NCBI RefSeq assembly: GCF_013372125.1
Contig: NZ_CP053826.1
Location: forward strand, 1,674,001 to 1,738,000
Length of the DNA: 64,000 nucleotides
Reading direction: 5' to 3'
Origin: Campylobacter curvus
GTDB lineage: Bacteria > Campylobacterota > Campylobacteria > Campylobacterales > Campylobacteraceae
In this document: positions 1,008 through 54,177 of the stretch, piece by piece
How the letters are laid out: every line of letters starts with the position of its first letter
Numbering within the stretch: position 1 is the stretch's first letter
Program-made: the position numbers and the translations under genes
The notes under the pieces: generated by a model
Told to the model about the DNA's origin: nothing
Database searches by the model: none
The model's input: the letters and a program-made list of their open reading frames with translations, nothing else

Positions 1008-1193
1008 GGCTCTGTTATAATAAATCATTGACACTTGCTTCGCAAACCCTGTTCGCTCCGCAAAGCGCCGAACATATAGCACGATTTACGCGGTCAGCTA
1101 CCGCTTCCCTGTAAATCGGCGGCGATAGCGTCGCTTCACAAGGTTTGACTTCGCTTTAAAATCTAAAAATCAATGAGATATTGTAACAGAGCC
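1008..1193 (+). mobile_element. MITE-like element, copy A (intact ends, perfect 8-bp target duplication)
   Basis: A 186-bp element with inverted ends. The left end starts GGCTCTGTTATAATA and the right end, on the other strand, starts GGCTCTGTTACAATA; similarity continues to TCATTGA, about 24 bp. It is flanked by a perfect duplication AAAGATTT at 1000-1007 and 1194-1201. It has no coding capacity. The body (GCAAAGCGCCGAAC, TAGCACGATTT, GCGGTCAGCTACCG, AAATCGGCGGCGATAG, GGTTTGACTTCGC) recurs at several other places in the window. The GGCTCTGTT end and 8-bp duplication fit IS6 or IS1595 type transposases acting in trans; that link is inference. Confidence 0.85.
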
Positions 1194-1225
1194 AAAGATT
1201 TATTTGAAATTCAAGCGTGACAAAT

Positions 1226-1257
1226 AACAGTAGCGATCTTGGGCGATGGCTACTGTT
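1226..1257. other. Hairpin AACAGTAGC / GCTACTGTT
   Basis: A 9-bp perfect stem (1226-1234 with 1249-1257) around a 14-nt loop, between the repeat element and the end of upp. It could end transcription of upp, which reads towards it, but it has no U-tract. The rest of 1202-1376 shows no gene. Confidence 0.4.
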
Positions 1258-1376
1258 TACTTCAATCCTATCTCGTGAACGTTTACAGCTTTTCAAGAAG
1301 CAGTTGTTAAGCGTATAAGCTCGAAGTCACAGCAAAAATGGTGTCGTTTCGTGAGATCTGCTTTGGTTTTGTAAAT

Positions 1377-2003
1377 TTACAGCGTATTAAACACCCTATC
1401 ACCTGCGTCGCCAAGTCCCGGCACGATGTAGTTTTTCTCGTTTAGTCGCTCGTCGATCGCAGCGGTATAGACCTCGACGTCAGGGTAAATTTCACTAAAA
1501 CGCCTAAGCCCCTCGGGAGCGGCGATGATGGAGATAAATTTGATCTGCTTGATGCCGTTTTCGCGTAAAAATTTGACCGCGTCTATTGCCGTGCCGCCGG
1601 TGGCAAACATTGGATCGATGATGATGGCAAGGCGGCTTTTAGCGTCCTTTGGCAGCTTTGCGTAGAAAAACTCCGCCTGCGCGGTTTTTTCATTGCGCTG
1701 AAAGCCAAGAAACCCGACACTCGCATCGGGGATGATCGTAAAAACGCTATCGAGCATCCCAAGCGCGGCGCGCAGGATCGGGCAGATCATGACCTTTGTC
1801 GCGAGCTTTCGCGCCCTCGTCGTAGCCACGGGGGTCTGCACGCTGATCTCGCGCAGATTTAGATCCCGTGTGGCCTCGAAAATCATCAGGTGGCTTATCT
1901 CGTCAACGAGCATGCGAAACTGAAACGGCTGCGTATTTTTATCCCTTAAAATGGCGAGTTTGTGTTCGATCAAGGGGTGCGAGATGAGCCTGACGTTTTT
2001 CAT
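1377..2003 (-). CDS. upp: Uracil phosphoribosyltransferase
   Basis: A 208-residue cytosolic enzyme that makes UMP from uracil and PRPP in pyrimidine salvage. The type I PRTase PRPP loop IDPMFATGGTAID lies at 129-141, and the C-terminal uracil-binding segment YIVPGLGDAGDR is present. Length is normal. The start codon directly abuts the malic enzyme stop codon, so upp is the last gene of a gltX - malic enzyme - upp operon. A uracil permease gene lies about 49 kb away in the window and would supply its substrate. Confidence 0.97.
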   Translation of the reverse strand: MKNVRLISHPLIEHKLAILRDKNTQPFQFRMLVDEISHLMIFEATRDLNLREISVQTPVATTRARKLATKVMICPILRAALGMLDSVFTIIPDASVGFLGFQRNEKTAQAEFFYAKLPKDAKSRLAIIIDPMFATGGTAIDAVKFLRENGIKQIKFISIIAAPEGLRRFSEIYPDVEVYTAAIDERLNEKNYIVPGLGDAGDRVFNTL

Positions 2004-3257
2004 TTAAAATCCTTTTGCGAGTTTTGCCGTGTAAGCCGCGATGTCAAAGTCATTTACGCGAGCGACGGCATCCTCGATCGCCGCCTTTGCGACTGCCGGA
2101 GCGACTGCGGTTAGCACGCGCTTGTCAAACGGCTTAGGGATTATGTAGTCTTTGCCAAATTTTAGCTCGCTCACGCCAGAAGCCTTTAAAACCTCAGCAG
2201 GCACGCTCTCTTTGGCTAAATTTGCCAGCGCGCGCGCCGCCGCCATTTTCATATTTTCGGTGATCTTTTTTGCGCGCACATCAAGCGCCCCGCGGAATAT
2301 AAACGGAAAGCCAAGTACGTTATTTACTTGATTTGGATAATCACTCCTGCCAGTACCCATCATCACGTCGCTACGCACGGCGACCACGTCTTCCGGGAAG
2401 ATCTCAGGCACTGGGTTGGCAAGCGCGAAAATAATAGGTTCCGGATTCATCGTTAGCACCATCTCTTTTGTGAGCACTCCGGGCTTGCTAAGACCTAAAA
2501 ACATATCCGCCCCTTTCATCGCGTCTGCTAGCGTCCTGTCGGCGGTTTTGACGGCGAATTCGACCTTTTCTGGCGTGAGGTCGGTGCGCCCGTTATGGAT
2601 GACGCCCTTGCTGTCGATCATCACGATATTTTTCGCGCCAAGCGCCTTATACATCTTCGCGCACGCGATACCGGCAGCTCCCGAGCCGCTTACGACGATT
2701 TTTATTTTAGCGATGTCCTTGCCTGAAATTTCAAGCGCGTTTATTAGCCCCGCACTCGTTATCATCGCCGTTCCGTGCTGATCGTCGTGCATGACGGGGA
2801 TATCGACCGCATCTTGCAGCTTTTTTTCGATCTCAAAGCACTTTGGAGCGCGGATGTCCTCTAAATTTATGCCGCCAAAGGTTGGCGCAAGGGCTTTGCA
2901 AATTTCAACGATCTTGTCCGCGTCGTGCTCGTCTAGCTCGATGTCAAAGGCATCGACGTTTGCAAATTTTTTAAACAGCACCGCCTTGCCCTCCATTACG
3001 GGCTTGCCCGCTACCGCGCCGATGTCGCCAAGCCCCAGCACAGCCGTGCCGTCAGTGATAACGGCGACTAAATTCGCCTTGTTCGTGTATTTGTAGGCTA
3101 GCTCGGTGTCTTTGTTTATCTCTCTACAAGGCTCTGCCACACCCGGTGTGTAGGCCATGGATAGGTCTTTTGCGCTCTCGCACGGGGTCTTGACCTTTAT
3201 CTCGATCTTGCCGCCGATGTGGTAGTTTAGCGCCTCTTCTTTCGTCACGTGTGTCAT
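2004..3257 (-). CDS. NAD(P)-dependent malic enzyme (malate to pyruvate)
   Basis: A 417-residue enzyme that oxidatively decarboxylates malate to pyruvate. It is the short bacterial form without the phosphotransacetylase-like C-terminal domain of MaeB. Visible are the N-terminal [12 protein letters not shown] (37-48), the metal-site motif DDQHGT (158-163) and a Rossmann GSGAAG (191-196). Its start overlaps the end of gltX by 4 nt (ATGA), and upp follows without a gap. In a sugar-poor Campylobacter this feeds pyruvate from C4 acids. Confidence 0.95.
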
Positions 3258-4633
3258 TTTCTCTCCTTTAAAATATTTTTAATTCTTTGTTTGATCTCTT
3301 TGCTACCAAGCACTTCAAGCACCTCAAATATGCTCGGACTCACGCTGCTGCCAGTTAGTGCCACGCGCAAAGCCTGCGCCAAGTCTTTTAGTTTTAGTCC
3401 GTTTTGCTCTAAAAATTCGTTCGTGATCTTTTCATATCCCGCCGCGTCTAAATTTAGCGTCAAAATTTCAGCAAATTTAGCCAAAATTTCAAGGCTGGCC
3501 GGCGTGATAAATTTAGCATACGCTTTCTCGTCGTATGCGGTAGGTGCGTCGATGATCGCCTTTGCGCTTTGGCTCATCTCGACCAAGGTTTTGGAGCGTT
3601 CGCGAAGTGAATTTAGCAGCAGCTCGCCCTTAGGTAACGCTCTAAAATCCACGCCAAATTCCTTCATCTCATCAGCCAGCCTCTCATACGGCAAGGTCTT
3701 GATGTAGTGAGCGTTTAGCCAGTCGAGCTTTTGGGCGTTGTAGGTGCTTGATGACTTGTTTATGTCGTGCGGATCGAAGTATTTTAGCATGTCCTCTATG
3801 CTAAAAATCTCATCGTCGCCGTGGCTCCAACCAAGCCGCACGAGGAAATTTAAAAGCGCCTCGGGCAAATAACCCATGCGTTTATACTCCATCACGTCAG
3901 TCGCGCCGTGGCGTTTGCTAAGCTTCTTGCCGTCCTCGCCGTTTATCATCGCGACGTGGAAAAATTCCGGCTGCTTAAAGCCAAGCGCGTCATAAAGCAC
4001 GATCTGCTTTGGCGTGTTTGAGAGGTGATCGTCGCCGCGGATCACGTGCGTGACACCCATGAGCGCATCATCGACCACGACCGTGAAGTTATACGTCGGC
4101 GTGCCGTCGCTACGAGCGATGATGAAGTCATCGAGGATGTCCTCGACCTTAAATTTTACCTCGCCTTTGATGCCGTCACGTATCAAAATTTCACCGCTTA
4201 GCGGGGCTTTGATACGGATCACGGGCTCTATGCCAGCTGGTGGCGTACCGGTAAAATCACGGTAGCGATTGTCGTATTTTGGTCGCTCTTTGCGCGCTTC
4301 TTGCTCTTTGCGCAGCTCGTCAAGCTCTTCTTTACTCATATAGCATTTGTAGGCTTTGCCCTCAGCTAGGAGCTTTGCGACGTATTGTTTATAAATTTCA
4401 AAGCGGCGCGACTGATACGTGACCTCGCCGTCGTGGTCAAGCTTGCACCACGCAAAGGCTTCTTTTATCGCTTGCGTGGCTTCTTCTGAGTTTCGTTTCA
4501 GGTCGGTGTCCTCGATACGAAGCAGGAATTTTCCGCCGTTTGCTCTGGCGTAGAGATAGTTGTAAAGTGCCGTTCTAAGACCGCCGATATGTAAATACCC
4601 CGTAGGAGATGGGGCGAATCTGGTGACTAACAT
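3254..4633 (-). CDS. gltX: Glutamyl-tRNA synthetase
   Basis: Class I aminoacyl-tRNA synthetase of 459 residues charging tRNA-Glu (and/or tRNA-Gln, since Campylobacter carries two GltX paralogues and uses amidotransfer). The HIGH box appears as HIGG at 15-18 in [13 protein letters not shown], and the KMSKS box as KLSKR at 237-241. I chose the start at 4633 rather than 4666, because the longer form would overlap its own -10 box and adds residues unlike the family. It is the first gene of the gltX - malic enzyme - upp operon. Position next to the SurA-like gene matches C. jejuni gltX2. Confidence 0.95.
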
Positions 4634-4650
4634 TTCGTGCCTTGATTTTA

Positions 4651-4672
4651 TGTTATAATGGCTCAAATTATA
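4651..4672. promoter_or_regulatory. Back-to-back promoters of gltX and the PPIase gene
   Basis: Plus strand: extended -10 TGTTATAAT at 4651-4659, giving a leader of about 37 nt before the ATG at 4703. Minus strand: TATAAT at 4667-4672, giving about 27 nt before gltX at 4633. Both boxes lie inside the longest-ORF versions of the two genes, which supports the shorter starts chosen here. Confidence 0.65.
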
Positions 4673-4702
4673 TTTACAAATTACTTAAATAAAGGTTTTA
4701 TT

Positions 4703-5533
4703 ATGACAAAAAAGCTCTTTTTCACCGCTAGTGTGTGCACTGCTTTAAATTTATTTTCAGCCCAAATGGTAAACGGGATCGCCGCTATCGTCGAAAACGA
4801 ACCGATCACACTTTATGAAGTCTATCAGCTAAAAGAACAGCTAAAAACAGATGAGTCGCAGGCGCTGAATTTACTGATCAGAGACCGTCTGGAGCAAGCT
4901 CAGATCAAAAATTTAGGCATAAGCGTGACGCCATTTGAAGTAAATGAGCGCATAGACGCGATAGCAAAGCAAAACGGCATGACGAGCACTCAGTTTAGAA
5001 GCTCCGTAGAGTCGCAGGGAACGAGCTTTACGGACTTTAAAAACGAAGTCGAAAAAAAGATGCTTCAAGAAAAGCTATATAGAAATATCGCATCAGAAGC
5101 CGGTAAAAACGTGACTGACGAGCGTGCAAAGGCGTATTACGAGGCGAACAAGGAGCAGTTTAATATCTTTAACAGCGCCGAGATCGTGCTGTTTAGAGCC
5201 GCCAGTATGCAAGAGCTAGAAAATCAAAAGGGCAAACTAAGCCCGCTAAAAGGCGTCCAGGCGCAAAATTTAACGCTTGAGTATCAAAGCACGAACCCGC
5301 AGCTAGCCTCGATCATAGCAAATACCGCGATCGGTGACTTCACGCAAATTTTCAAAACACAAGAGGGCTTTGACATGTTTTATGTCAAAAACAAGATCGG
5401 CTCGTATACGCCGAGCTTTGATCAGATTAAAGACGAGATAATAAACAGCCTTTATCAAAACGAGCAGCAAAAAACCATGCAGGATTATTTCGATAAGCTC
5501 CGCGCAAAAGCAAAGGTACAAATTTTAAGATAA
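4703..5533 (+). CDS. SurA-like periplasmic chaperone / peptidyl-prolyl isomerase (Cj1289 type)
   Basis: A 276-residue exported protein: a Lys-rich start, a hydrophobic core and a cleavage site near LNLFSA-QM. It has a SurA_N-like chaperone domain and a C-terminal lobe resembling a degenerate parvulin domain, as in C. jejuni Cj1289, whose chromosomal position it shares. It would assist folding of outer membrane proteins. The ATG at 4703 is preceded by AAAGG and follows an extended -10; the upstream in-frame ATG at 4658 lies in the promoter. It is transcribed alone and convergent with accC. Confidence 0.85.
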   Translation: MTKKLFFTASVCTALNLFSAQMVNGIAAIVENEPITLYEVYQLKEQLKTDESQALNLLIRDRLEQAQIKNLGISVTPFEVNERIDAIAKQNGMTSTQFRSSVESQGTSFTDFKNEVEKKMLQEKLYRNIASEAGKNVTDERAKAYYEANKEQFNIFNSAEIVLFRAASMQELENQKGKLSPLKGVQAQNLTLEYQSTNPQLASIIANTAIGDFTQIFKTQEGFDMFYVKNKIGSYTPSFDQIKDEIINSLYQNEQQKTMQDYFDKLRAKAKVQILR

Positions 5534-5555
5534 ATCGTAGCTAACGTAAATTTCG

Positions 5556-5586
5556 CCCGCTTTGGCTAAATTTCAGCCAGAGCGGG
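5556..5586. terminator. Hairpin between convergent PPIase gene and accC
   Basis: A 12-bp stem, CCCGCTTTGGCT (5556-5567) pairing with AGCCAGAGCGGG (5575-5586) with a single G-U, and a 7-nt AAATTTC loop. It lies in the 67-bp gap between two converging genes and probably works for both strands, although the downstream T-runs are short. Confidence 0.7.
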
Positions 5587-5600
5587 TCTAAATGTAAATT

Positions 5601-6932
5601 CTAGTGCCTTGATAGGTAGTTCGTATCGTAGTTGTTGTTTATGAAGTCGGGATTTTCCATCATCGCGATGTGAAAATCACGCGTGGTTTTGATGCCTTGG
5701 ATGATGAGCTGATCTAATGCGACTTTCATTTTGTGGATCGCTCTGTTTCGATCCTCGTCCCAGACGACTAGCTTTCCTATCATGCTGTCATAAAACGGCG
5801 GTATAGAGTAGTCTTGATAGATGTGGCTGTCCATTCGCACGTTGCGACCGCCAGGACAGACGTATTTTGTGATCTTACCGGGGCTTGGCACGAAAGTATT
5901 TGGATCCTCTGCAGTGATGCGGCACTCTATCGAGTGTCCTTTTAGCTTTATGCTACTTTGAGCTGGCAGCTTCTCACCTTGCGCGACTCTTATCATCCAC
6001 TCGATGATGTCAAGTCCGCTCACCATCTCGCTCACGCAGTGTTCGACTTGTAAGCGAGTGTTCATCTCGATGAAGTAAAAGTCTAAATTTTTATCGACTA
6101 AAAACTCAAACGTGCCCGCTCCCTCGTAGCCGATAGCTTTTGCCGCTTTTATAGCCGTCTCGTGAAGCCTTTTTCGCGTCTTTTCATCAAGCAATATCGC
6201 AGGGCTCTCTTCTATGAGCTTTTGATGTCTGCGCTGCATCGAGCAGTCGCGCTCGCCGATGTGAAGGACGTTGCCGTGGCTGTCGCCGATGATCTGCACC
6301 TCGATGTGACGCGGGTTTAGGATATATTTTTCCATATACATCGTGCCGTCGCCAAATGCGCTCATCGCCTCGCTCTCGGCCGACCAAAACGCCTTTTCAA
6401 GATCGACTTCTTTCTCGACTACGCGCATGCCTCGACCGCCACCGCCTGCAGCTGCTTTTAAAATGACCGGATAGCCGATCTTTTTAGCTAGATCCTTGGC
6501 GACTTTGATGTCTGCTATCGCACCGTCAGAGCCGGGGATTACCGGCACACCGGCACGCTGCATCATTTGCTTGGCCTTGCTTTTATCACTCATCAAAGCC
6601 ATAGCTTCTACGCTTGGTCCTATAAATTTTAGCTTGTGATGAGAACAAATTTCAACGAAATTTTGATTTTCACTCAAAAAGCCGTATCCCGGAAATATCG
6701 CGTCCGCTTCACTTATCTCGGCTGCGCTGATGATGGCCGGGATATTTAGGTAGCTATCACTTGAGCGAGGATTGCCTATGCAGATCGAAGCGTCGGCATA
6801 TCTAACGTAAAGTGCGTCGGCATCGGCTGTCGAATGCACCACGATGGCTTCTTTACCCATCTCCTTTATCGTTCGCAGCGCTCGAAGAGCAATCTCTCCG
6901 CGGTTTGCGATTAAAATTCGCTTTAGCTCCAT
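5601..6932 (-). CDS. accC: Biotin carboxylase subunit of acetyl-CoA carboxylase
   Basis: A 443-residue ATP-grasp enzyme that carboxylates the biotin on AccB with bicarbonate and ATP, the first half-reaction of fatty acid synthesis. Visible are the N-terminal LIANRGEIALR, the glycine-rich ATP lid GGGGRGM (163-169), and the catalytic EMNTRLQVEH. Length is normal. The ATG overlaps the accB stop by 1 nt (TAATG), so the two are translationally coupled. The biotin it needs could be made with bioB at 28.2 kb. Confidence 0.97.
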   Translation of the reverse strand: MELKRILIANRGEIALRALRTIKEMGKEAIVVHSTADADALYVRYADASICIGNPRSSDSYLNIPAIISAAEISEADAIFPGYGFLSENQNFVEICSHHKLKFIGPSVEAMALMSDKSKAKQMMQRAGVPVIPGSDGAIADIKVAKDLAKKIGYPVILKAAAGGGGRGMRVVEKEVDLEKAFWSAESEAMSAFGDGTMYMEKYILNPRHIEVQIIGDSHGNVLHIGERDCSMQRRHQKLIEESPAILLDEKTRKRLHETAIKAAKAIGYEGAGTFEFLVDKNLDFYFIEMNTRLQVEHCVSEMVSGLDIIEWMIRVAQGEKLPAQSSIKLKGHSIECRITAEDPNTFVPSPGKITKYVCPGGRNVRMDSHIYQDYSIPPFYDSMIGKLVVWDEDRNRAIHKMKVALDQLIIQGIKTTRDFHIAMMENPDFINNNYDTNYLSRH

Positions 6933-7390
6933 TAAATTTTCTCCACACCAAATAGTGGCAATCCAAATTCCACCGGCTGTCCGTCGGCTACGAGAGCCTC
7001 GGTAATCTGACAGTCAAACTCAGCCTCTATCTCATTCATTATCTTCATAGCTTCGATTATACCGATGATATCGCCCTTTCTGACCCTTTGTCCTACTTTG
7101 ACAAAGGGTGCTGCACCAGGGCTTGGAGCCATGTAAAACGTGCCTACCATAGGCGATTTGATACTATCTTTTGGAGATTGGCTCGGTTTTGATTCGGTGC
7201 TTAAGACGACATTTACCGGAGTCGGAGCGGCGGGCGTAGGGGCTTGCACTACTGGCGCAGGAGCGGGCAGCTCGCAGCAGTCGGCGAATTTCTCAAGCTC
7301 TATCTCAAAATCGCCCTCTTTGATGCGAATTTTATTCATCGTCATACTATCAAAGATCTGCATCAGCTCCTTAATATCTTCTTTTTTCAT
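6932..7390 (-). CDS. accB: Biotin carboxyl carrier protein of acetyl-CoA carboxylase
   Basis: A 152-residue carrier. The N-terminal AccB segment is followed by a Pro/Ala-rich linker (about 42-63) and a C-terminal biotinyl domain with EAMKIMNE, where Lys116 is the biotinylated lysine. It is first in the accB-accC operon, with an AGGAG site a few bases before the ATG. The linker is short compared with enterobacterial AccB but usual for the family. Confidence 0.96.
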   Translation of the reverse strand: MKKEDIKELMQIFDSMTMNKIRIKEGDFEIELEKFADCCELPAPAPVVQAPTPAAPTPVNVVLSTESKPSQSPKDSIKSPMVGTFYMAPSPGAAPFVKVGQRVRKGDIIGIIEAMKIMNEIEAEFDCQITEALVADGQPVEFGLPLFGVEKI

Positions 7391-7454
7391 TTAGTTCTCC
7401 TAAAATTTTATAAGTAGTTTGGCGTATTGTAGCAAAATTTAGTGAAATTAAAAC

Positions 7455-8153
7455 TTACTTCGCCGCTTTAGCCCTGTCTAAAAAGTTTATAAATCCAAAC
7501 ATAACAACACTCAAAACGACCAAAATCAGGCTCAAGATCAAGGCTCTTTCATTTTGTCCGTCATAAACGGCGTTGAATATCGCAAGCGAAACGGTGTCCG
7601 TCTTACCAACGATATTGCCGCCTAGCATGAGCGTGATACCCACCTCGCCAAGCGCCCTTGCGACGGACAATATAAGAGCCGAAAGCACACTTTTAAAAAT
7701 GAGCGGCAGCATTATGAAAATGGCTATTTCAAAGCGGCTCTTACCAAGGCTAAGACCAGCCTCGATGAGACTTTTTGGGAAGCTTTCGAGCACGCTTTGA
7801 ACGGGCTTTACCAAAAGCGGCAAGCCCGCTAAAAACGCCGCTATGACAAGAGCATTGAAGCTAAATACGATATTTAGCCCAAGAGCCTTTCCTATAAAGC
7901 TGTTTCGCCCCAAAAGATAAAGTAGCAAAAACCCCGTCGCAATGGGCGGAAATACGAGTGGGAACATTACGACGGCCTCTAAAACCGCCTTAAATTTACC
8001 TTTATAAAATGCGAGGAAATAAGCTATCGGCAAGCCGATGAAGATAAAAAGCAAAAACGCCACAAATAGCGTCTTTGCACTAAGAAAAAGAGGATGTATC
8101 AGCCAGTTTAGATCAACGATCTGCAAAATTTCCCTTTCAAATGCTAGGCGCAC
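7455..8153 (-). CDS. ModB-type oxyanion ABC transporter permease (no ATPase next to it)
   Basis: An inner membrane permease of 232 residues with about five hydrophobic spans and the cytoplasmic loop motif EAGLSLGKSRFEIAIFIMLP, the EAA loop that docks an ATPase. It belongs to the molybdate/tungstate (ModB/TupB) group. It lies 7 nt after a ModA-like binding protein gene. The start is uncertain: GTG at 8153, or a TTG at 8126 preceded by AAAGGG. No ATP-binding gene follows, unlike the full mod operon at 36.6-40.1 kb, so it may borrow ModC from there. Confidence 0.85.
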   Translation of the reverse strand: MRLAFEREILQIVDLNWLIHPLFLSAKTLFVAFLLFIFIGLPIAYFLAFYKGKFKAVLEAVVMFPLVFPPIATGFLLLYLLGRNSFIGKALGLNIVFSFNALVIAAFLAGLPLLVKPVQSVLESFPKSLIEAGLSLGKSRFEIAIFIMLPLIFKSVLSALILSVARALGEVGITLMLGGNIVGKTDTVSLAIFNAVYDGQNERALILSLILVVLSVVMFGFINFLDRAKAAK

Positions 8154-8160
8154 TTTTGAT

Positions 8161-8862
8161 CTATTTTAGCCCGAATTTAGCAAAGATCTCTTTTGAACGA
8201 GGTGTTTTTAGCTCGTCCAAAAATTTAGCGCAATTAGCATTTTTATCGCAGCTAGCAAGCTTTGCCGCGCTGATGAAAACGGGGCTATAAAGGCTCTCGT
8301 CGATGTAGATGACCGAGCCAAATTCGCCCTTTCTAGCCTCCGCCTCGGTCGAGTTGATAAAGCCCGCATCAACTTCGCCGTTTAGCACGTATGTAACGAC
8401 TTGCAGTACGCCGGCAACGGCTAAAATTTTAGGTGCGAGCTCGCTTTCAAGCTTTGCATTTTTCAAAAATTCCACCGTGCGGATGCCGTAAATCGCCTTT
8501 TTAGCATCTGGCATCGCGATCTTGGCTAAATTTTTAAGCTCGCTCGCGTCCTTTATCTGCTTGCCCTTTGGCGTGACGAGCACGAGACCTGCCTTGCCGA
8601 TGCGCTCGTAACCTTTGATGTCAAGGTCGGTTTTCTTTAAAAACGCCTCGTCACCCACGATGAGCGCCATGTCGCTTTGCTTTGCCTGAGCCGTGATCTG
8701 GGCTAAATTTGCAAACGCGCCCTCGACATTCACGCCATCTTTTTTGAGATTTTCGATGACCGCGGTCACGGGCTTTTTAAAACCACCGCCAGCACCGACT
8801 AGAAGGCTATCCGCACCAAAAACAAATACCGCTGCCAGCGATAAAAACAATAACTTTTTCAT
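8161..8862 (-). CDS. ModA-like periplasmic oxyanion-binding protein
   Basis: A 233-residue exported protein with signal peptide MKKLLFLSLAAVFVFGA and the early GAGGGFKKP typical of molybdate/tungstate binding proteins. Later parts (AVAGVLQVVTYVLNGEVDAGF) fit the same fold. The ATG at 8862 is chosen because a strong AGGAGG stands 4 nt before it; the longer in-frame extension has no such site. With the following permease it forms a two-gene unit inserted between accB and dcd relative to C. jejuni order. Ligand may be molybdate, tungstate or another oxyanion. Confidence 0.8.
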   Translation of the reverse strand: MKKLLFLSLAAVFVFGADSLLVGAGGGFKKPVTAVIENLKKDGVNVEGAFANLAQITAQAKQSDMALIVGDEAFLKKTDLDIKGYERIGKAGLVLVTPKGKQIKDASELKNLAKIAMPDAKKAIYGIRTVEFLKNAKLESELAPKILAVAGVLQVVTYVLNGEVDAGFINSTEAEARKGEFGSVIYIDESLYSPVFISAAKLASCDKNANCAKFLDELKTPRSKEIFAKFGLK

Positions 8863-8899
8863 TGTCCCTCCTAAATAGAATTTGGCTTTAATGGTATAA

Positions 8900-8917
8900 A
8901 ATATATTATTATATATT
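8900..8917. promoter_or_regulatory. AT-only palindrome upstream of the ModA-like gene
   Basis: AATATAT-TATT-ATATATT, perfect 7-bp arms, 38 nt upstream of the ModA-like start. The shape is like the TATATA-N-TATATA core of ModE operators, but such AT palindromes arise easily by chance here. Confidence 0.3.
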
Positions 8918-9023
8918 GATAAATTTAGGAATTTTAAGTGCAAAATTTGCAAAATAAAAATATCACATAGAAATAAAAGATAGTAGCGCACGTAGAGTAA
9001 AATTTATGCTTAAATTTAAATTA

Positions 9024-9032
9024 TGCTATAAT
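9024..9032 (+). promoter_or_regulatory. Extended -10 promoter of dcd
   Basis: TGCTATAAT (TG-N-TATAAT), 27 nt upstream of the dcd ATG, with AAGGA as ribosome site. Confidence 0.65.
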
Positions 9033-9058
9033 CGCTTAAATTTAATTAAGGATAAAAA

Positions 9059-9619: not shown

Positions 9620-9621
9620 AT

Positions 9622-9656: not shown

Positions 9657-9677
9657 AATAATCAAAAAGGGGTAAAT

Positions 9678-14138: not shown

Positions 14139-14150
14139 GAGAGTACGAGC

Positions 14151-27724: not shown

Positions 27725-27900
27725 TTGATTTCTTAAACGAGCGCTTCGCTTCTGCTTTGCAGTTGCGAAAGGAGTGAAGCAAAAATCTTGCTAGCTCTAC
27801 AAAGCGCCGAATTGTAGCACGATTTTTTGCTTTGCAACTGCGAGCAAAACGTGTTAAACGTTAAGTACTCTGCCTTTTGCTCATCTTATTTGCAAAGCAG
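27725..27900. repeat. Decayed copy of the MITE family (copy B2)
   Basis: The stretch holds the family core in order: CGCTTCGC, CTCTACAAAGCGCCGAA, GTAGCACGATTTTTTGC and TTGCAACTGCGAGCA, but no recognisable ends. It lies upstream of the better copy B in the same 514-bp gap. Confidence 0.6.
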
Positions 27901-27963: not shown

Positions 27964-28176
27964 GGCTCTGTTAAAATATTTCATTGATTTTCAGTTTTTA
28001 AAGCAGGAGAATGCGAACAGCATTCGAGTAAAACCTTGTTAGCGAGCTTATCGCCGCCGATTTTTCACTTCGCTATCGCTCGTGACGAGACTGCGCTACG
28101 AGCAGAGAAGCCACAGGCTGACCGCGGTCTGCTTGCAGTTGCGAAGCAAGTGTCAATAGTTTATTATAATAGAGCG
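27964..28176 (-). mobile_element. MITE-like element, copy B (upstream of bioB)
   Basis: A 213-bp element in the orientation opposite to copy A. The left end is GGCTCTGTTAAAATATTTCA and the right end, read on the other strand, CGCTCTATTATAATA. It is flanked by TTTAAGAA (27956-27963) and ATTAAGAA (28177-28184), an 8-bp duplication with one mismatch. The body shares CGGTCTGCTTGCAGTTGCGAAG with other copies. The right end holds a TATAAT facing bioB. Confidence 0.8.
28165..28170 (+). promoter_or_regulatory. -10 box for bioB, inside the MITE end
   Basis: TATAAT within TTATTATAATAGAGC, the inverted-repeat end of copy B, 37 nt before the bioB ATG. No other -10 of this quality is seen in the gap, so the repeat may supply the promoter. 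Confidence 0.5.
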
Positions 28177-34116: not shown

Positions 34117-34195
34117 ATTCTTAGCATAGTCAAAACTTCGCTACGAACAAGATAAGTGGTAGCTGACCGCGCGTCTAATCGTGCTGCAAAACAAA
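34117..34195 (-). repeat. Partial MITE fragment (copy C) at the end of the methyltransferase gene
   Basis: Read on the minus strand this holds GCAGCACGATTAGACGCGCGGTCAGCTACC and TTCGTAGCGAAGTTTTGACT-like pieces in short form, matching the TAGCACGATTT, GCGGTCAGCTACCG and TTTGACTTCGC core of copy A. It has no terminal repeats. It ends at the base before the methyltransferase stop codon at 34196. Confidence 0.55.
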
Positions 34196-36368: not shown

Positions 36369-36600
36369 AGCTATATTTCAACAAAGTATTATATTTAAAC
36401 GAATGCTTCGCAAATCTTACTTGCTCCACAAAGTGCCGAACGTGTAGCACGATTTTTTGCTTCGACTTCGTCTTGCAACTGCGAGCAGACAGCGGTCAAC
36501 TACCGCTTCCCTCAAAATCGGCGACGTCTGCTTGCAGTTGCGAAGCAAAATAGTGTCGCTTCATAAGATTTGACTACGCTGGAACGAAACCTTGAAATTT
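36369..36600 (+). repeat. MITE family copy D (one end degenerate)
   Basis: The left end AGCTATATTTCAACAAAGTATT matches the TIR of copy F, GGCTCTGTTTTGACAAAGTATT, at 17 of 22 bases. The body has CTCCACAAAGTGCCGAAC, GTAGCACGATTTTTTGC, AGCGGTCAACTACCGCTTCCC and TTTGACTACGC. The right end is not recognisable. It fills the 313-bp gap between the peroxiredoxin and the stop of modB. Confidence 0.7.
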
Positions 36601-41598: not shown

Positions 41599-41604
41599 CC
41601 CTTG

Positions 41605-44049: not shown

Positions 44050-44059
44050 AATAAAATTT

Positions 44060-44300
44060 GGCTCTTATAATAAAATGCTGATAGCCTTAAACTAACGCTT
44101 CGCAAATCTTATTCGCTTCGCAAGACGCCGAACATATTCGCGTTGCTCGCAGCTTTTTAAGACGCTTCGTTGCACTCGCAACTGCAAGCAGACCGCGGTC
44201 AGCTTTATAGCTTCCCTCAAAATCGGCGGCGATAGTGTCGCTTCATAAGGTTTGACTTCACTTTGAGAGCTGAAAATCAATGAGATGTTTTAATGGAGAT
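44060..44300 (+). mobile_element. MITE-like element, copy E (perfect 8-bp target duplication)
   Basis: A 241-bp element. The left end GGCTCTTATAATAAAATGCTGATAG lacks GTT relative to copy A; the right end is AATCAATGAGATGTTTTAATGGAGAT, decayed at its tip. It is flanked by perfect TAAAATTT at 44052-44059 and 44301-44308. The body is collinear with copy A (CGCTTCGCAAGACGCCGAAC, CGCGGTCAGC, AAATCGGCGGCGATAGTGTCGC, AGGTTTGACTTC). The right duplication touches the stop codon of the next gene. Confidence 0.8.
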
Positions 44301-44307
44301 TAAAATT

Positions 44308-45025: not shown

Positions 45026-45120
45026 GGAGGATAAAGTGATCTGGTGGCGCTCACGGACTTCAAATCCGATGGCGGGGCGGTTGACCGTCTTGCGGGGAGT
45101 TCGATTCTCTCATCCTCTCG
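45026..45120 (+). tRNA. selC: tRNA-Sec (anticodon UCA)
   Basis: A selenocysteine tRNA. The anticodon arm GGACTTCAAATCC has UCA at 45060-45062 in a CTTCAAA loop, as in E. coli selC. It has a long variable arm (GGCGGGGCGGTTGACCGTCTTGC) and a T arm GGGAG-TTCGATT-CTCTC. The acceptor GAGGAT (45027-45032) pairs with ATCCTC (45112-45117), and G26 can wobble with T118; CCA is encoded at 45121-45123. The first acceptor pair is imperfect. It implies that this organism makes selenoproteins. Confidence 0.93.
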
Positions 45121-45189
45121 CCAAAATTCCAACCGCTACAGATACGCTGATTTGTAAAGTAGACCAGCCAAAGCTAGCCTACTTATACT

Positions 45190-48135: not shown

Positions 48136-48219
48136 AAAAACTCCTTGAATTTATTAAAAATTTTGATTACACGATATATAGCAATTTATATAATCTTTAT
48201 CAATTTTTGAGCGTATTTT

Positions 48220-48238
48220 AAAATGAAAATTATTAAAA
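48220..48238. promoter_or_regulatory. Possible Fur box of the large TonB receptor gene
   Basis: AAAATGAAAATTATTAAAA matches 13 of 19 bases of the GATAATGATAATCATTATC consensus, 85 nt upstream of the receptor start. In such AT-rich DNA this is weak. Confidence 0.3.
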
Positions 48239-48319
48239 CTTTATTAAAAATAAAAAAAATTGATTAGTTTTGGATAAATAAATTATTATAAATTACGAAA
48301 GGATCGGTAGTATCGATGA

Positions 48320-49339
48320 TCAAAATTTCACACGCGGGTTGATGTTTAGCTCGTTATGCTTCACAAACTCGCCTTTTAGGTATTTCTCGCGGCCCGCGCG
48401 TGCTATCATCGCGGCGTTATCGGAGCAAAATTCAAGCGGAGCTAAAAGTAGCTCGCAACCGCTTTCAAGGCATAGTCGCTCGATACGAGAGCGTAAATTC
48501 AGGTTCGCACTCGCTCCACCCACGATGCCAAAGCGCTTAAACTGGCGCTCTTTGAAAATTTTAGTCAGCTTATCCATGATGTGCGCGCAGGCTGCATTTT
48601 CAAAAGCGTAGCAAATGTCCGCCATATCGTCGTTTGAGAGCTCGCGATCTGTCGCGCCTGCTAAATTTTGGCCTTTTATCTTTTCTATCTCAAGCCTCAC
48701 TTGGTTTTTAAGCCCGGAAAAGCTATACTCCAGCCGTTTATCGTGCAAAAGCGGGATAGTAAATTTAAACCTCTGCTTGTCTTTGCATTGCTGCGCTAAA
48801 TTTTGCACCGCCGCGCCGCCAGGGTAGCCAAGCTGCATCATCTTAGCCACCTTATCAAAGCTCTCACCAAAGCTATCGTCGCTAGTGCCGGCAAGCAGTG
48901 AAATTTTACCCGCCGTATCGATGTCAAGCACCATCGTATGCCCGCCGCTTACCAGCAAGACGCCAAGTGGGAATTTCGCCTCGCAGCCCAAAAACAGCGA
49001 ATAGATATGCCCCACCAGATGATTTACGGCGATGAGCGGCACATTTAGCGCCACACTAAGGGCCTTTGCCATGCTCACGCCTCCTATCAGGCTCACGCTA
49101 AGGCCGGGCTCATTTGTGACGGCGATAGCCTTTATCTCTTTAAATTTTGGCTTTATCTCTTCAAGTAGCGCCGGCAGTGCCTTTGTATGAAGCCTCGCGG
49201 CAAGCTCCGGCACTACGCCGCCAAAGGGGCTGTGCTCGCTTTCTTGAGAGATCTTTTTATGATAAAGCAGCTTTAAATTTTTGATATCCAAAAGCGCAAC
49301 CGAGCTATCGTCGCAGCTGCTTTCTATACCAAGTATCAT
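48320..49339 (-). CDS. tsaD: tRNA N6-threonylcarbamoyladenosine synthase subunit TsaD
   Basis: A 339-residue ASKHA-fold protein that transfers the threonylcarbamoyl group to A37 of ANN-decoding tRNAs. It has ILGIESSCDDSSVAL, and the metal-binding His107 and His111 in NHLVGHIYS. Length is normal. Its ATG overlaps the pgp1 stop (ATGA), and GGAG lies before it. Position next to pgp1 matches C. jejuni Cj1344c. Confidence 0.96.
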   Translation of the reverse strand: MILGIESSCDDSSVALLDIKNLKLLYHKKISQESEHSPFGGVVPELAARLHTKALPALLEEIKPKFKEIKAIAVTNEPGLSVSLIGGVSMAKALSVALNVPLIAVNHLVGHIYSLFLGCEAKFPLGVLLVSGGHTMVLDIDTAGKISLLAGTSDDSFGESFDKVAKMMQLGYPGGAAVQNLAQQCKDKQRFKFTIPLLHDKRLEYSFSGLKNQVRLEIEKIKGQNLAGATDRELSNDDMADICYAFENAACAHIMDKLTKIFKERQFKRFGIVGGASANLNLRSRIERLCLESGCELLLAPLEFCSDNAAMIARAGREKYLKGEFVKHNELNINPRVKF

Positions 49340-50637
49340 TTAAACTCCACCAAGATCATACCGGCAAATTTATCGGCGCCGCCATCGTTTCGGTAAAATT
49401 CCACGCGGTAGACTTTGCTTTCTTTATCGACGGCATAAGAGCCGCTCATTTGCCTTTTAGCTATCTCCTCGCCCGCCTCGTCGCCACTCTTGCCGCTGTA
49501 TCCGATGACATTTGTGCGCACGCTAGGGATCTTTAAAATTTTAAAGCTGTTTTTGAGCGAAATTTTATCCCCGCTTTTGGCTGAAATTTGCTTGCCATCA
49601 GCGACCAGCGCGATATCTTTTAAAACGGGTGCATACTCGAAATACTGCGGATTTAGCTTTGTCACAAAGCGGTTTCCATACTGCACCTTGTAGCCGTTAC
49701 CGTCCTTTAAAACGGCGATGAGAGGGTTTGACGAGCTGTATCTTAGCTCGCCCTTTTTTAGCGGGACGAAATTTAGACTGCCTTTTAGATTGTGGATATT
49801 CAGCACGAAAGCATCGTCAAAGAGACTCAGGCGGATCTCCTTTTCTATCGCCTTTTTCACCTCCTTTACGTTCAGCGCGAAAGGTCGCGTAAATTCTATC
49901 CCCGCTACGCGCATGTATTCCTCGATGGCCAGCAGATGATAGTAGGTGCGCTGCTCGGCGTTTAAATTTTTGCTCGCTTCGTTTGCAAATGCCGACTTGC
50001 TCTGCGTCACAGCGTAATACGTGAGGCTCTTTAGCATCTCTTTATCGCCAAGTGCGGTGTGTGTGTTTTTGATGTGATAAGCATGCTTGGCGTCGAGTAA
50101 ATGAGCGTTTATGACGTCTCTCACCCTAGCCGCTACGCCCTCTAAATTTTCGTACCTAGCGCCCTTTAGACTGCTTTGATCTATTATGCAGGTATTGCCC
50201 CATTTGTCAGGATTTTCGTCCTTATTTACGAAAGTGTCGCGGTAATACCCGCTGCCATCGTGTAAATTTAAGATGATAGATACGTTTTTGTCCGTTATCA
50301 CGTCTTTGATGCGCATTACCGCGTCATAGTCTGGATCGCCCCTGTCGATGTGCGCAAATTTACGGTTCATGTCGCCTTTGGTGCCGCGGCTTCGCTGGAT
50401 GATGCTTGGGAAATTTAGATTTGGCACGACCCAGAGGCTGCCTTTTGTGATGTTGTAGTCCGTCGCCACGATAGAAGCGGCCAGAAATCCTCCCGGCTCA
50501 TCGCCTTGTATGCCGCCTATCAAAAGCATCGTATTGTCGCTTGGCACGCCCTTTTTGATGAGCGCGTATTCTAAATTTTTACCTTGTAAAAATGCGCAAA
50601 ACAGCGCCAAAATAGCCAAAATTTTTAAAATTTTCAC
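49336..50637 (-). CDS. pgp1: Peptidoglycan DL-carboxypeptidase Pgp1
   Basis: About 433 residues, exported, M14 metallopeptidase that trims tripeptides of peptidoglycan to dipeptides and is required for helical cell shape in C. jejuni. The metal ligands appear as GGIQGDE (Q44 and E47, Gln in place of the usual His) and NLHDG (H126), which matches C. jejuni Pgp1. I choose the GTG at 50637 since GGAGG lies 5 nt upstream; the ATG at 50649 overlaps that site. It is followed by tsaD. Confidence 0.9.
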   Translation of the reverse strand: MKILKILAILALFCAFLQGKNLEYALIKKGVPSDNTMLLIGGIQGDEPGGFLAASIVATDYNITKGSLWVVPNLNFPSIIQRSRGTKGDMNRKFAHIDRGDPDYDAVMRIKDVITDKNVSIILNLHDGSGYYRDTFVNKDENPDKWGNTCIIDQSSLKGARYENLEGVAARVRDVINAHLLDAKHAYHIKNTHTALGDKEMLKSLTYYAVTQSKSAFANEASKNLNAEQRTYYHLLAIEEYMRVAGIEFTRPFALNVKEVKKAIEKEIRLSLFDDAFVLNIHNLKGSLNFVPLKKGELRYSSSNPLIAVLKDGNGYKVQYGNRFVTKLNPQYFEYAPVLKDIALVADGKQISAKSGDKISLKNSFKILKIPSVRTNVIGYSGKSGDEAGEEIAKRQMSGSYAVDKESKVYRVEFYRNDGGADKFAGMILVEFK

Positions 50638-50655
50638 ACTATCCTCCATCGATAG

Positions 50656-51894
50656 CTAGTAGCCCTCGTAATGCCTGCTCTTTGGCAAGAATAAATTTAA
50701 AACTATGCCGGTGACCGCGCCAAGTCCGATACCAGTAAAGCTCACCACTCCAAAATCAAGCACCATACCGCCTATGGCAAAGACAAAGATGAGCGCGACG
50801 ATGATCATGTTTCTAGGATCGGCCAGATCGACTTTGTTTTTTATCAGCGTCTCCATGCCTACGCTTGCGATTATGCCAAAAAGCAGCAGCATTATACCGC
50901 CGATCACCGGAGCCGGGATAGTAGAGAGCGCGGCTCCTAGCTTACCGACAAAGGCCAGCACGATAGCCGTTATTGAGGTCCATGTCATGACCCCCGGATT
51001 ATAGGCCTTTGTTATGCTGACTGCGCCCGTTACCTCCGAGTATGTCGTATTTGGCGGACCTCCGAAAAAGGCAGCCAGCGATGTCGCCAGCCCGTCGCCA
51101 AGCAGCGTGTTTTTAAGTCCGGGATTTTTGAGGAAATTTTCCTTCGTTACGTTCGAGATAGCTAGCATATCGCCGATATGCTCGATAGCAGGGGCGATCG
51201 CGATAGGTATCATGTAGAGGATCGCGTCTAGCTCGAAGCTTGGGGCGCTGAAATTTGGCAGCTTAAACCAAGCCGCCTCAATAATCGGGACGAAATTTAC
51301 CATCCCGAAAAAATAAGCCGCCACATAACCCACGAGTATGCCGCAAAGTATCGGCACCAGGCGTAAGATACCGCGCCCTATCATCATTACGATTATCGTG
51401 GCTACTAGTGAGATGCCCGCCACTATGAGCGCCTCGGTCTGCGCATAGGCGCTTTGGCCTTTACCCATCGCCATATTCACGGCTGCCGGCGAGAGGATGA
51501 GACCTATGGTCATTATCACGGGGCCCACGACCACGGGCGGTAAAATTTTATGTAAAAAGCCCTCGCCGCGAAAGCGCACGATGAAGCTTAGCACCACGTA
51601 AAAAAGTCCGGCAAACACCACGCCGCCCATGGTAGCCGCTACGCCCCACTCCTTTATGCTAAAAGTCATCGGCGCGATAAATGCAAACGAGCTCGCCAAA
51701 AATATCGGCGGAACGTTTTTGCGCGTTATTATCTGAAAAAGCAGTGTGCCAAGGCCCGCCGTAAAAAGCGCTACGTTCGCGTCAAGCCCCGTTAGTATCG
51801 GCACCAACACAAGTGCGCCAAACGCCACGAACAAAAACTGAACGCCGATGATGCTATCTTTTAGACTAAAGTGATAGCCCTCATATTTTTGCAT
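50656..51894 (-). CDS. uraA: Uracil permease, NCS2 family
   Basis: A 412-residue membrane protein with about 14 spans and the NCS2 signatures AIEHIGDMLAISNVT and PNTTYSEVTGAVS, closest to uracil:proton symporters. With upp at 1.4 kb it would allow use of external uracil. It is inserted between pgp1 and dxr compared with C. jejuni. The start overlaps the dxr end by 14 nt, with AAGGGG before the ATG, so it is cotranscribed. Confidence 0.9.
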   Translation of the reverse strand: MQKYEGYHFSLKDSIIGVQFLFVAFGALVLVPILTGLDANVALFTAGLGTLLFQIITRKNVPPIFLASSFAFIAPMTFSIKEWGVAATMGGVVFAGLFYVVLSFIVRFRGEGFLHKILPPVVVGPVIMTIGLILSPAAVNMAMGKGQSAYAQTEALIVAGISLVATIIVMMIGRGILRLVPILCGILVGYVAAYFFGMVNFVPIIEAAWFKLPNFSAPSFELDAILYMIPIAIAPAIEHIGDMLAISNVTKENFLKNPGLKNTLLGDGLATSLAAFFGGPPNTTYSEVTGAVSITKAYNPGVMTWTSITAIVLAFVGKLGAALSTIPAPVIGGIMLLLFGIIASVGMETLIKNKVDLADPRNMIIVALIFVFAIGGMVLDFGVVSFTGIGLGAVTGIVLNLFLPKSRHYEGY

Positions 51895-52978
51895 TTAGTC
51901 CCCTTTTTGCAAATTTTCTAACCTCTGCGTCGATCGCAAAAATTTCATCTTTTGTCTCTATTTTCACATCGGCAAATCTCTTCGCCGCAGCCAAAACGAT
52001 GCGAGAGATATCCAAAAACCCGCACTCGCCCTTTAAAAACGCAAACACTCCGACCTCGTTTGCGGCATTTATCACCACGCCAAGATCGGGGCACTGCAAG
52101 ACCTGCTCTTTTAGCGAAAAGATCGGATACTTCTTTAAATTTATTTTATGAAATTTTATATCTTTAAGAGCTAGCAGATCAGCGTGCGCTACGACATTTT
52201 CGCTCACGTTTTCAAGCACGGCATGCGCGATAGCCAGCTTCATATCAGCACGCGAGATATGCGCGGTGCAAGAGCCGTCCACAAACTCCACCAAGGCATG
52301 CACCATCGATGTAGGCTCGATGAGAGCGTCGATCCTGCTCGTGCCGTAAAGCCAAAAAGCCTCCATGACTTCAAAGAGTTTGTTCGCCATCGTGGCGCTA
52401 TCTATCGTGATCTTTGCGCCCATGCTCCAGTTTGGATGTTTCAAAGCGTCACTTGGCGTGACTTTGGCTAAATTTTTTATCGGCGTGCGGTAAAACGCCC
52501 CGCCGCTTGCGGTGATTACGAGGCGGCTTGGTGCGGTGCGGTTTTGCAGTAAAAATTTAAGCCCGAAATGCTCGCTATCAATAGGCGAAATTTTGGCTGT
52601 ATCCAGAAATTTACCGCCTGCGACCAGGCTTTCTTTATTTGCCAGTGCTAGGCTTTTGCCAAGCTCTTGCGTCTTTAGACTAGGTGCGAGCCCTGCAAAT
52701 CCCACGAGAGCATTTACCACCTTTTGGCTGTGGCAGGCCTCAAGCATCTCAAGCAGACCCTTTGCACCTATAAAAATTTGAGATTTTTTTAAAATTTTGA
52801 CCTCGCTAGCTAGGCTTTCATCTGCTACACAGACGAATTTAGGCCTAAATTTAGCGATCTGCTCGTTTAAAAGAGCGATATTTTTAGCGCAGCTTAGCGC
52901 CTCAACGCTTACGCCGTGACGAGAGCAAATTTCAAGAGTGTTCGTACCGATAGAGCCCGTAGAGCCTAGTATTACCAC
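51881..52978 (-). CDS. dxr: 1-deoxy-D-xylulose-5-phosphate reductoisomerase
   Basis: About 365 residues; the second step of the MEP isoprenoid pathway, making MEP from DXP with NADPH. ILGSTGSIGTNTL is the NADPH site. LANKESLVAGG, PIDSEH and TIDSATMANKLFE hold the metal and substrate residues. The GTG at 52978 fits the family start and leaves only 7 nt of overlap with cdsA; a TTG 12 nt upstream is the alternative. Confidence 0.95.
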   Translation of the reverse strand: MVILGSTGSIGTNTLEICSRHGVSVEALSCAKNIALLNEQIAKFRPKFVCVADESLASEVKILKKSQIFIGAKGLLEMLEACHSQKVVNALVGFAGLAPSLKTQELGKSLALANKESLVAGGKFLDTAKISPIDSEHFGLKFLLQNRTAPSRLVITASGGAFYRTPIKNLAKVTPSDALKHPNWSMGAKITIDSATMANKLFEVMEAFWLYGTSRIDALIEPTSMVHALVEFVDGSCTAHISRADMKLAIAHAVLENVSENVVAHADLLALKDIKFHKINLKKYPIFSLKEQVLQCPDLGVVINAANEVGVFAFLKGECGFLDISRIVLAAAKRFADVKIETKDEIFAIDAEVRKFAKRGLNAKI

Positions 52979-53703
52979 GAAAGCGCCCAAAGAAGTGCAA
53001 CGACGCCAAATAGATATCCGTCTATCCTGTCAAGCATACCGCCATGTCCCGGGAAAAGCCCGCCGCTGTCCTTGACCCCACCGGCGCGCTTTAGATAGCT
53101 CTCGAAAAGATCGCCCCAAATGGCAAAAACGCAGACTAAAAAGCTAGTAAAGATGATCTGTAAAAAGCCGTCCATCACGAGGTTGCCGCAAATCGTGCCG
53201 ACTATGGTGCCGGCTATCACGCCGCCTGCGACGCCCTCTATCGTTTTGTTCGGAGAGCTTGGACTAAAGGGGTGCTTGCCGACGGCCTTGCCGGTAAAAT
53301 AGGCCGCAGTATCGCTGGCTGCGACGCTCAAAATGAGCCATACCAGATACCCTAGACCATACTCCGAGTAAAGCATCCACATCATAAATATCGGCGTAGT
53401 CGGATAGATGAAAGGCAAAACACTGCTTAAGCTCTGGCTCTTGACATGCGCCAGCACTGAGGCTACTAGCATGATAGCCAGCATCGCGATAAATATAGGG
53501 TTTGTAAAAAATGTGAGCGAATAAAAAACAAGCGCTATGAAAACTAGCTGCTTATGCTCGATACCGTAGAGCTTGAGCGCCTCGCAAAATGCAAAATAAA
53601 GCACGATGCCTAGCAAGACGAAATTTAAAATATAGCTGTTTATGAAAAATACTATCAAGACAGCCGCTAGCATAAGCACGCCCGTTACGATACGAGATGT
53701 CAT
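52972..53703 (-). CDS. cdsA: Phosphatidate cytidylyltransferase
   Basis: A 243-residue inner membrane enzyme with about seven spans that makes CDP-diacylglycerol for phospholipids. The C-terminal signature is visible as KDSGGLFPGHGGMLDRIDG. AAGGAGAT precedes the ATG, and an extended -10 lies upstream. It leads the cdsA-dxr-uraA-pgp1-tsaD series, all joined by overlaps or short gaps. Confidence 0.95.
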   Translation of the reverse strand: MTSRIVTGVLMLAAVLIVFFINSYILNFVLLGIVLYFAFCEALKLYGIEHKQLVFIALVFYSLTFFTNPIFIAMLAIMLVASVLAHVKSQSLSSVLPFIYPTTPIFMMWMLYSEYGLGYLVWLILSVAASDTAAYFTGKAVGKHPFSPSSPNKTIEGVAGGVIAGTIVGTICGNLVMDGFLQIIFTSFLVCVFAIWGDLFESYLKRAGGVKDSGGLFPGHGGMLDRIDGYLFGVVALLWALSW

Positions 53704-53736
53704 CTTATCTCCTTAATATGCCTAAAATTTAAGCGC

Positions 53737-53745
53737 ATTATAGCA
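53737..53745 (-). promoter_or_regulatory. Extended -10 promoter of cdsA
   Basis: TGCTATAAT on the minus strand, 34 nt before the cdsA ATG. It gives the cdsA operon its own promoter, downstream of the inserted MITE copy F. Confidence 0.6.
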
Positions 53746-53846
53746 TTTAAATTTTAAGAGGTTATTTACCAAATTTATATGAGTGAAATTTTCAAGCGAA
53801 GTTTCGTTTGCCCAAGCGTTTAAAATTTCAAAGGAGCGGGAATTCT

Positions 53847-54177
53847 GGCTCTGTTTTGACAAAGTATTGACGCCCTTAAACAAACGCTTCAATCTTATTT
53901 ACTCCAGGAGCAACCTAGCACAGACGCGAACAAGGTTTCAAGGAAATCTTTTTTTGCTTCGCAAAAAACTACTCAGCCCCTGCGGGCTTGCCTAATTTTT
54001 CGTTTCGTTGCACTCACGACTGCTAGCGAAAGTGCAGAGCAAGTAGCCGTTCCCCTGCTTGCGAGAGTAGCGAACGAAGCGAAGCAGAAACATCGGCGGC
54101 GATAAGCTCGCTACTAAGATTTGACTACGCTAGAATGTTTAAAATTTTAAAAATCAACACCTTATCAAAACAGAGCC
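53847..54177 (+). mobile_element. MITE-like element, copy F (331 bp, long inverted ends)
   Basis: Left end GGCTCTGTTTTGACAAAG continuing to TATTGA; right end, on the other strand, GGCTCTGTTTTGATAAGG continuing to TGTTGA: about 24 bp with three mismatches. This end type differs after GGCTCTGTT from that of copy A, so there are two subtypes. The body is longer but shares CATCGGCGGCGATAAGCTCGC and AGATTTGACTACGC with copies A and D. A clear 8-bp duplication is not seen (GGAATTCT against AAAATTTA). It separates the coiled-coil gene from cdsA. Confidence 0.8.

Follow-up and report, generated by a model that had tools for sequence, protein, structure and literature searches.

A modular family of miniature inverted-repeat elements in Campylobacter curvus, probably mobilised by an IS1595-type transposase of the genus

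Introduction

Short repeats with inverted ends recur between the genes of Campylobacter curvus, and they raise a simple question: what are they, and what has moved them? We addressed it with a stretch of 64,000 nucleotides (RefSeq assembly GCF_013372125.1, contig NZ_CP053826.1, positions 1,674,001 to 1,738,000 of the forward strand; GC content 43.9%), referred to below as the window, together with the genome of 1,974,918 bp from which it comes and the other genomes of the genus. An initial annotation, made from the letters of the window alone, had described a family of short, non-autonomous, transposon-like repeats at seven places and had guessed at an IS6 or IS1595 element as its partner. Our analysis indicates that the repeats are miniature inverted-repeat transposable elements (MITEs), and that they were probably mobilised in trans by an IS1595-family transposase belonging to a group of about 340 amino acids (aa) found in the genus. 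We put the probability of this reading at about 0.87.

Results

Copy number of the family

The end 9-mer GGCTCTGTT occurs 71 times in the genome, against two occurrences of the reversed control (exact counts), and five times in the window, where 0.38 are expected. When the copy at 1008-1193 of the window (copy 1) was used as a blastn query, 48 genome matches were obtained, the query itself included, and the best of the others are 93-97% identical to it. In all, 57 copies of approximately 170-530 bp were catalogued, and probes for ends, core and internal modules group into 66 clusters. These counts cover 252,506 bp, namely the window and the stretches around matches, with consistent overlaps; both are lower bounds, since exact ends and two copies served as the seeds of the search. 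Related sequence is present at all seven places named by the initial annotation. The claim that none codes for protein also stands: no copy among the 57 lies wholly inside an open reading frame (ORF) of at least 90 aa, and five overlap one in part. The element is thus short, multicopy and without coding capacity, as a MITE should be. According to a simple ORF caller, 39 copies lie between tandem genes, 12 between convergent and four between divergent genes, and two were left unassigned.

One full homologous MITE was found in another genome of the genus, G014; it is 79% identical, is flanked by the target duplication AATTTTTA, and shares its genome with a transposon of the partner type described below. 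The exact 24-base right end of one of the two end subtypes (type A, with one degenerate base) had no match in a genome-contig collection that may omit the records of the window's own genome and very near ones, so that the absence of the exact end applies just to the other species in that collection. Elements of 148-178 bp with exact ends were found across 48 genus genomes (the window's own included) at two places, both in the window's genome; this is weak evidence of absence, because elements of the commonest size (185-189 bp) and those with mutated ends escape such a search.

Target duplications and empty sites

If the repeats have transposed, their insertion should have left a mark on the flanking DNA. 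Among 34 end pairs picked by end similarity alone (at least 15/24 identities; one of them, at 1432431, is not a family copy), 19 are flanked by a perfect 8-bp direct repeat. When right flanks were reassigned at random, the mean was 0.76 and the maximum was 4 in 1000 shufflings. In a set of 38 copies, 22 have perfect repeats of exactly 8 bp, one of 7 and one of 4, and no repeat extends to 9; the A+T share of the 22 targets is 98%. This set came from 41 pairs kept for similar ends or similar flanks, from which 587086-587432 (a second pairing), 1432431 and 1751316 were dropped, and the count of 22 is for that reason partly selected by its own outcome.

Empty sites were looked for in sister species, with queries built from copies with perfect duplications at seven sites and matched against the genus genomes. 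At six of the seven, a relative without the copy has at least one match crossing the junction among the matches listed, some by just 17 bases, and two sites were confirmed base by base. The site of copy 1853311 is empty in G009, with a single target and 93.5% identity, and agrees exactly. For copy 1138749, the four loci checked are all empty (74.5-79.3% identity); the target is a single ATTTATTT in three of them and has one substitution in the fourth. Taken together, the inverted ends, the duplications of exactly 8 bp, the empty sites and the placement outside ORFs bear out the proposal of a non-autonomous transposon.

As a separate observation, one stretch of G009 (C1:38358-38858, L170) is 93% identical to the window's genome, against 71-85% for its other orthologous stretches among the matches listed. 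Recent exchange is a possible explanation of this difference in similarity.

Candidate partner transposons in the genus

The source of the transposase was sought by profile search. In the window's genome, PF12762 finds one IS1595-type transposase, an IS1016-like protein of 233 aa that is considered further below. A second IS1595 group, captured by a profile that we call A1, consists of transposases of 337-341 aa, the others being 63-65% identical to the first, with a zinc ribbon, a DDE domain and a weak helix-turn-helix match. Full-length A1 matches occur in five of the 48 genus genomes (G004, G014, G039, G041 and G043). Matches of any kind occur in 13 of the 48; beyond the five, there are eight genomes with fragments (G022, G044) or with weak, distant matches.

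Four of the five transposases lie in transposons that could be delimited. Both ends and a perfect 8-bp duplication are present in G014 (3627 bp), G041 (2999 bp) and G004 (5215 bp); the G043 transposon (3832 bp) has a perfect 8-bp duplication and one changed end base. The G039 transposon runs off its contig, with a full-length transposase. The right end of copy 1 agrees with the G014 transposon end at 21 of 24 positions, a value that shuffled tails reach in 0 of 10000 trials; over all partner ends, the agreement is 14-21/24 for the right end and 15-21/24 for the left. Of the two partners guessed at by the initial annotation, IS1595 is thus favoured, since four genomes have delimited transposons whose ends are similar, and IS6 is not, there being no PF13610 match in the window's genome. 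The check proposed there, for a full-length element of either family with the same ends in this genome, found none; IS1595-type elements with similar ends are in other genomes.

Cargo of the partner group

Relatives of the A1 group were also found in 12 loci of named records. Among the hosts are Actinobacillus ureae, Pasteurella, Neisseria, Psychrobacter, Helicobacteraceae bins and a Clostridia bin. The locus L158 appears to be the G043 contig again, with the same ORFs. Ends with a direct repeat were found in four of the 12 (perfect in L160, L164 and L166; in L161 shifted by one base and with a single mismatch) and were not found in the other eight, some of which are cut or fragments. The transposase ORF of L164 (Neisseria gonorrhoeae DSM 9188) is truncated.

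The genes behind the transposase were scanned with Pfam in 13 loci (L134, L137, L138, L139, L140, L159, L160, L161, L162, L163, L164, L166 and L169); it did not extend to L165, L167, L168 or the G022 and G044 fragments. In 12 of the 13, at least one such gene matches a domain of DNA methylation or restriction-modification. Nine loci have N6_Mtase or Eco57I; the others have two D12 methylases in L162, and N6_N4_Mtase with ResIII in L166 and in L169. The remaining locus, L163, had a sole neighbour scanned, on the opposite strand and without a Pfam match. This cargo lies between found ends in eight of the 12 (L134, L137, L139, L140, L160, L161, L164 and L166), the borders of L138, L159, L162 and L169 not being delimited. 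Because the Pfam families differ, the association between A1 transposase and DNA-modification genes looks like a repeated one rather than one inherited once.

Modular interior and fold

The copies align on a common core, and each of five palindromic segments (M1-M5) has a fixed place at which a copy either has it or lacks it. Modules were scored in 41 copies by an alignment threshold. Twenty-six copies were fully resolved and fall into 12 combinations, and 15 have at least one uncertain call; the sets range from no module (12 copies) to all five (three copies). For each of the ten possible module pairs, every one of the four combinations of presence and absence occurs, the rarest being represented by a single copy in the pairs M1-M5, M2-M5 and M3-M5; the one for M3-M5 aligns poorly. 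Within the 252,506 bp, module probes match solely in clusters with core or end matches, or in catalogued copies. In a linkage test, mean r2 fell from 0.18 (1-10 bp) to 0.09 (10-30 bp), and the permutation was not significant (53/500; inner sites 84/500). The copies are a mosaic of modules, to which exchange between copies or a repeated loss of hairpins may have led; the test gave no significant sign of recombination as its cause.

The window copy is predicted to fold into one long stem with internal hairpins, at -67.5 kcal/mol against -40.8 for shuffled sequences (z -6.0). When the G014 copy was aligned with 19 copies of this genome chosen as module-less (20 rows in all), compensatory changes appeared at 11 of 39 pairs; none of 500 shuffles reached 11, and slid structures gave 1-5. 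Seven of the 11 compensated pairs lie in the internal stems, and one stem of the G014 copy has three adjacent pairs swapped at once. A covarying, conserved structure is thus found, of a kind that does not separate RNA from a DNA palindrome, nor selection from templated repair. Kinship among the aligned rows and templated palindrome repair are both alternatives to selection for the compensated stems.

It might be argued from these data that the sequence has been retained for a function as structured RNA or cruciform, such as a terminator, an RNA stabiliser or a protein-binding site, and that its mobility is secondary. The stability of the fold, the compensated pairs and the intergenic placement, with just 4 of 57 copies between divergent genes (a count given without a genome-wide expectation), would all agree with such a function. 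However, inverted ends covary in any case, and related sequences can exceed shuffles without any structure. Moreover, when a palindrome serves as template in replication, a change on one side of a stem can be carried to the other without selection. In the window, tRNA-Sec was the sole Rfam family at gathering score, and at six of the seven tested sites a relative does without the copy. We therefore consider a structural function improbable as the primary explanation, and retain the view that the family is a MITE moved by a transposase.

The resident IS1016-like element

Could that transposase be the one already resident in this genome? The IS1016-subgroup-like insertion sequence (IS) there is approximately 745 bp long (G000:C1, ~32.7-33.5 kb; L062:1211-1955), with ends GGCTCAAGATAAG and the duplication AAATCTTA, and its 233-aa protein fits the subgroup signature DESYFG ... 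HINGIENFW. It too belongs to the IS1595 family, its 8-bp duplication is A+T-rich, and its ends begin with GGCTC. The likeness to copy 1 stops after these five bases, however: 9 of 24 positions agree at the right end and 11 of 24 at the left, and for the right end 9170 of 10000 shuffled tails do as well. In addition, the element adjoins MITE sequence and has apparently inserted into a copy. As a partner it was rejected, and we judge mobilisation by it to be very improbable. An IS6-family partner, for which it counts that IS6 ends read GG-TCTGTT and that IS6 duplications are 8 bp, has next to no chance of being right, given that PF13610 matched nothing in this genome (the same search was positive in 5 of 14 control genomes; other genomes were not searched for IS6 elements with such ends) and that the best IS1595-type transposon ends match at 20-21 of 24 bases.

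In one other species of the genus, the 2.6 Mb genome G037 has 26 PF12762 matches, several with stop codons, which is an IS1595-type expansion with decay.

Copies and other features of the window

The copies in the window illustrate the range of ends, modules and decay. Copy 1 (1008-1193, plus strand) is a full copy with type A ends, both 9-base ends intact, no optional modules, terminal inverted repeats with 21/24 identities and a perfect duplication AAAGATTT on both sides. The plus-strand copy at 53847-54177 is likewise full, with type B ends (GGCTCTGTTTTGAYAA), both 9-mers exact, modules M2 and M3, and one further palindrome that was scored M4 in module scoring and is M1-like in probe clustering; it has no target duplication, 4 of 8 flank positions being mismatched. 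Both end subtypes proposed earlier, type A and type B, are real in the copy alignments. At 27964-28176 (minus strand) lies a copy with type A ends, the second decayed, in which the left core is missing and modules M4 and M5 are present; its flanks read TTTAAGAA/ATTAAGAA, with one mismatch. The plus-strand copy at 44060-44300 has module M3 and both ends decayed, and retains a perfect duplication TAAAATTT on both sides. The three 8-bp duplications of the initial annotation, two perfect and one with a mismatch, were accordingly recovered as described.

The remaining places hold decayed or partial copies and fragments. At 27725-27900 (plus) there is a type-B-like left part with module M1, and at 36369-36600 (plus) a decayed or partial copy in which module M3 lies between a left end of type-B-like sequence and a degraded right end. 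The minus-strand fragment at 34117-34195 holds part of the core, with its best match to other copies at 34135-34188 (E ~1e-6). A right-hand end fragment at 62090-62116 (minus; E 6e-8 against other copies) was absent from the initial annotation. The statement that such copies explain most intergenic gaps over 250 bp was too strong; they account for 5 of 10 when ORFs of at least 100 aa are considered, and for 3 of 7 with ORFs of at least 60 aa. One long intergenic gap without a MITE contains a tRNA-Sec gene, at 45026-45119.

Two MITE-like elements with type B ends, likened to the family by those ends, were noticed in another species, G042. The longer, of 525 bp (L197:1015-1539), is flanked by a perfect duplication, and the shorter, of 398 bp (L199:1129-1526), by an 8-bp repeat containing one mismatch. 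Each of the three 16S genes of the window's genome (L190-L192) has a length of 1651 nt, and an insert seems to be present in L190, somewhere in positions 150-420. The 16S gene of C. curvus 525.92 is given in the available part of PMC3734277 as 1701 bp, with an intervening sequence. A MITE origin of the apparent 16S insert was considered and rejected, no convincing similarity being found.

Discussion

How the elements may have moved

The above results suggest the following course. A transposase of the A1 group is taken to bind the ends GGCTCTGTT-N9-ATTGA (a putative binding site) and would insert the short element into A+T-rich intergenic DNA, producing the 8-bp duplication. To the short core, up to five palindromic segments may have been added, or lost, or swapped between copies, giving elements of approximately 170-530 bp. 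The MITEs would be remobilised once the transposase arrives again on a larger transposon with DNA-modification genes. Since the host is without an A1 transposase, its MITEs are probably stranded at present. That absence, together with the range of identities and the frequency of decayed ends, suggests past episodes of activity from a source that may since have been lost or may reside in other strains.

Several observations weigh against this interpretation. The window's genome has no match to profile A1, and no intact autonomous element was found in it; the pairing of MITE and transposase consequently rests on ends in other species. Perfect duplications are missing from 15 of the 34 end pairs and from 16 of the 38 copies of the earlier set. 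At site 1562460, four relatives are without the MITE, with an unclean alignment (36-58 gap bases) and a diverged spacer; at site 804482, no match among those listed crosses the junction, and one side is covered. Type B ends agree less well with the partner transposons, at 13-15 of 24 positions ungapped for copy 1096678 and at 15-20 for the copy at 53847. Finally, the G014 transposon and copy 1 match over only about 33 bp at one end, and the MITE interior shows no sign of having arisen from the transposon by deletion.

A more far-reaching picture can be drawn, of a combinatorial MITE in which palindromic cassettes are acquired, lost or swapped at fixed positions of a single core, a branched fold is kept by compensation, and movement depends on transposons with a constant cargo of DNA-modification genes from different families, so that shuffling, fold and methylation may act together in the spread of the family. 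We offer it tentatively and think it rather doubtful.

Novelty and significance

The belief of the initial annotation that no Campylobacter MITE of this kind had been described is consistent with the open literature, in which no such element was found by title or abstract. This family is unreported under Campylobacter MITEs or under C. curvus repeats and insertion sequences in those titles and abstracts, and in the available parts of PMC5217627 and PMC3734277. MITEs are mentioned solely in E. coli in the accessible text of PMC9769681, and the portion available of a MITE review (PMC10969869) has neither the word Campylobacter nor IS1595. Similarly, a search of the open literature brought up no title on IS1595 elements with methyltransferase or restriction-modification cargo, and the available sections of PMC3339403, PMC12561309 and PMC5704250 do not mention it.

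The work provides a defined intergenic repeat family for this part of Campylobacter, of use in annotation and in distinguishing strains according to which copies they have. It also points to a candidate transposase open to direct test. That methyltransferase and restriction-modification genes of several Pfam families stand beside one conserved transposase in several bacterial families suggests a repeated association, and with it a possible route for the spread of DNA-modification systems.

Comparison with known systems

The IS1595 family was reportedly defined by Siguier, Gagnevin and Chandler in 2009, with an 8-bp duplication and passenger genes. Among bacterial repeats, the BOX elements of Streptococcus pneumoniae and the Correia elements of Neisseria are likewise intergenic and palindromic, and BOX has variable internal modules; the Campylobacter family differs from them in host and sequence, and in having five different modules at fixed places. 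Members of the IS1016 subgroup such as ISApl4 are, according to the available text of PMC12561309, IS1595-family elements with A+T-rich 8-bp duplications and the DESYFG ... HINGIENFW signature; the MITE partner group differs from them in both ends and transposase. The elements tISCpe8 and MTnSag1 are described, in the part of PMC5704250 available, as having an IS1595-family DDE transposase, 25-bp inverted repeats, 8-bp duplications and extra genes, the cargo of tISCpe8 being lincomycin resistance; the partner group, in contrast, carries DNA-modification genes in 12 of the 13 loci scanned. A close parallel is a MITE of Haloquadratum walsbyi related to ISHwa6, listed in Table 4 of PMC3852290 (available in part) with 165 bp, seven copies, 25-bp inverted repeats and an 8-bp duplication. 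Both elements are short and IS1595-related, with inverted repeats and 8-bp duplications, whereas the Campylobacter family belongs to a different domain of life, has more copies (57 catalogued) and a modular interior, and had no cognate transposase found in its genome. IS1595-related MITEs are thus already known; what stands out in the present family is its modular interior, along with the DNA-modification genes that its candidate partner group carries.

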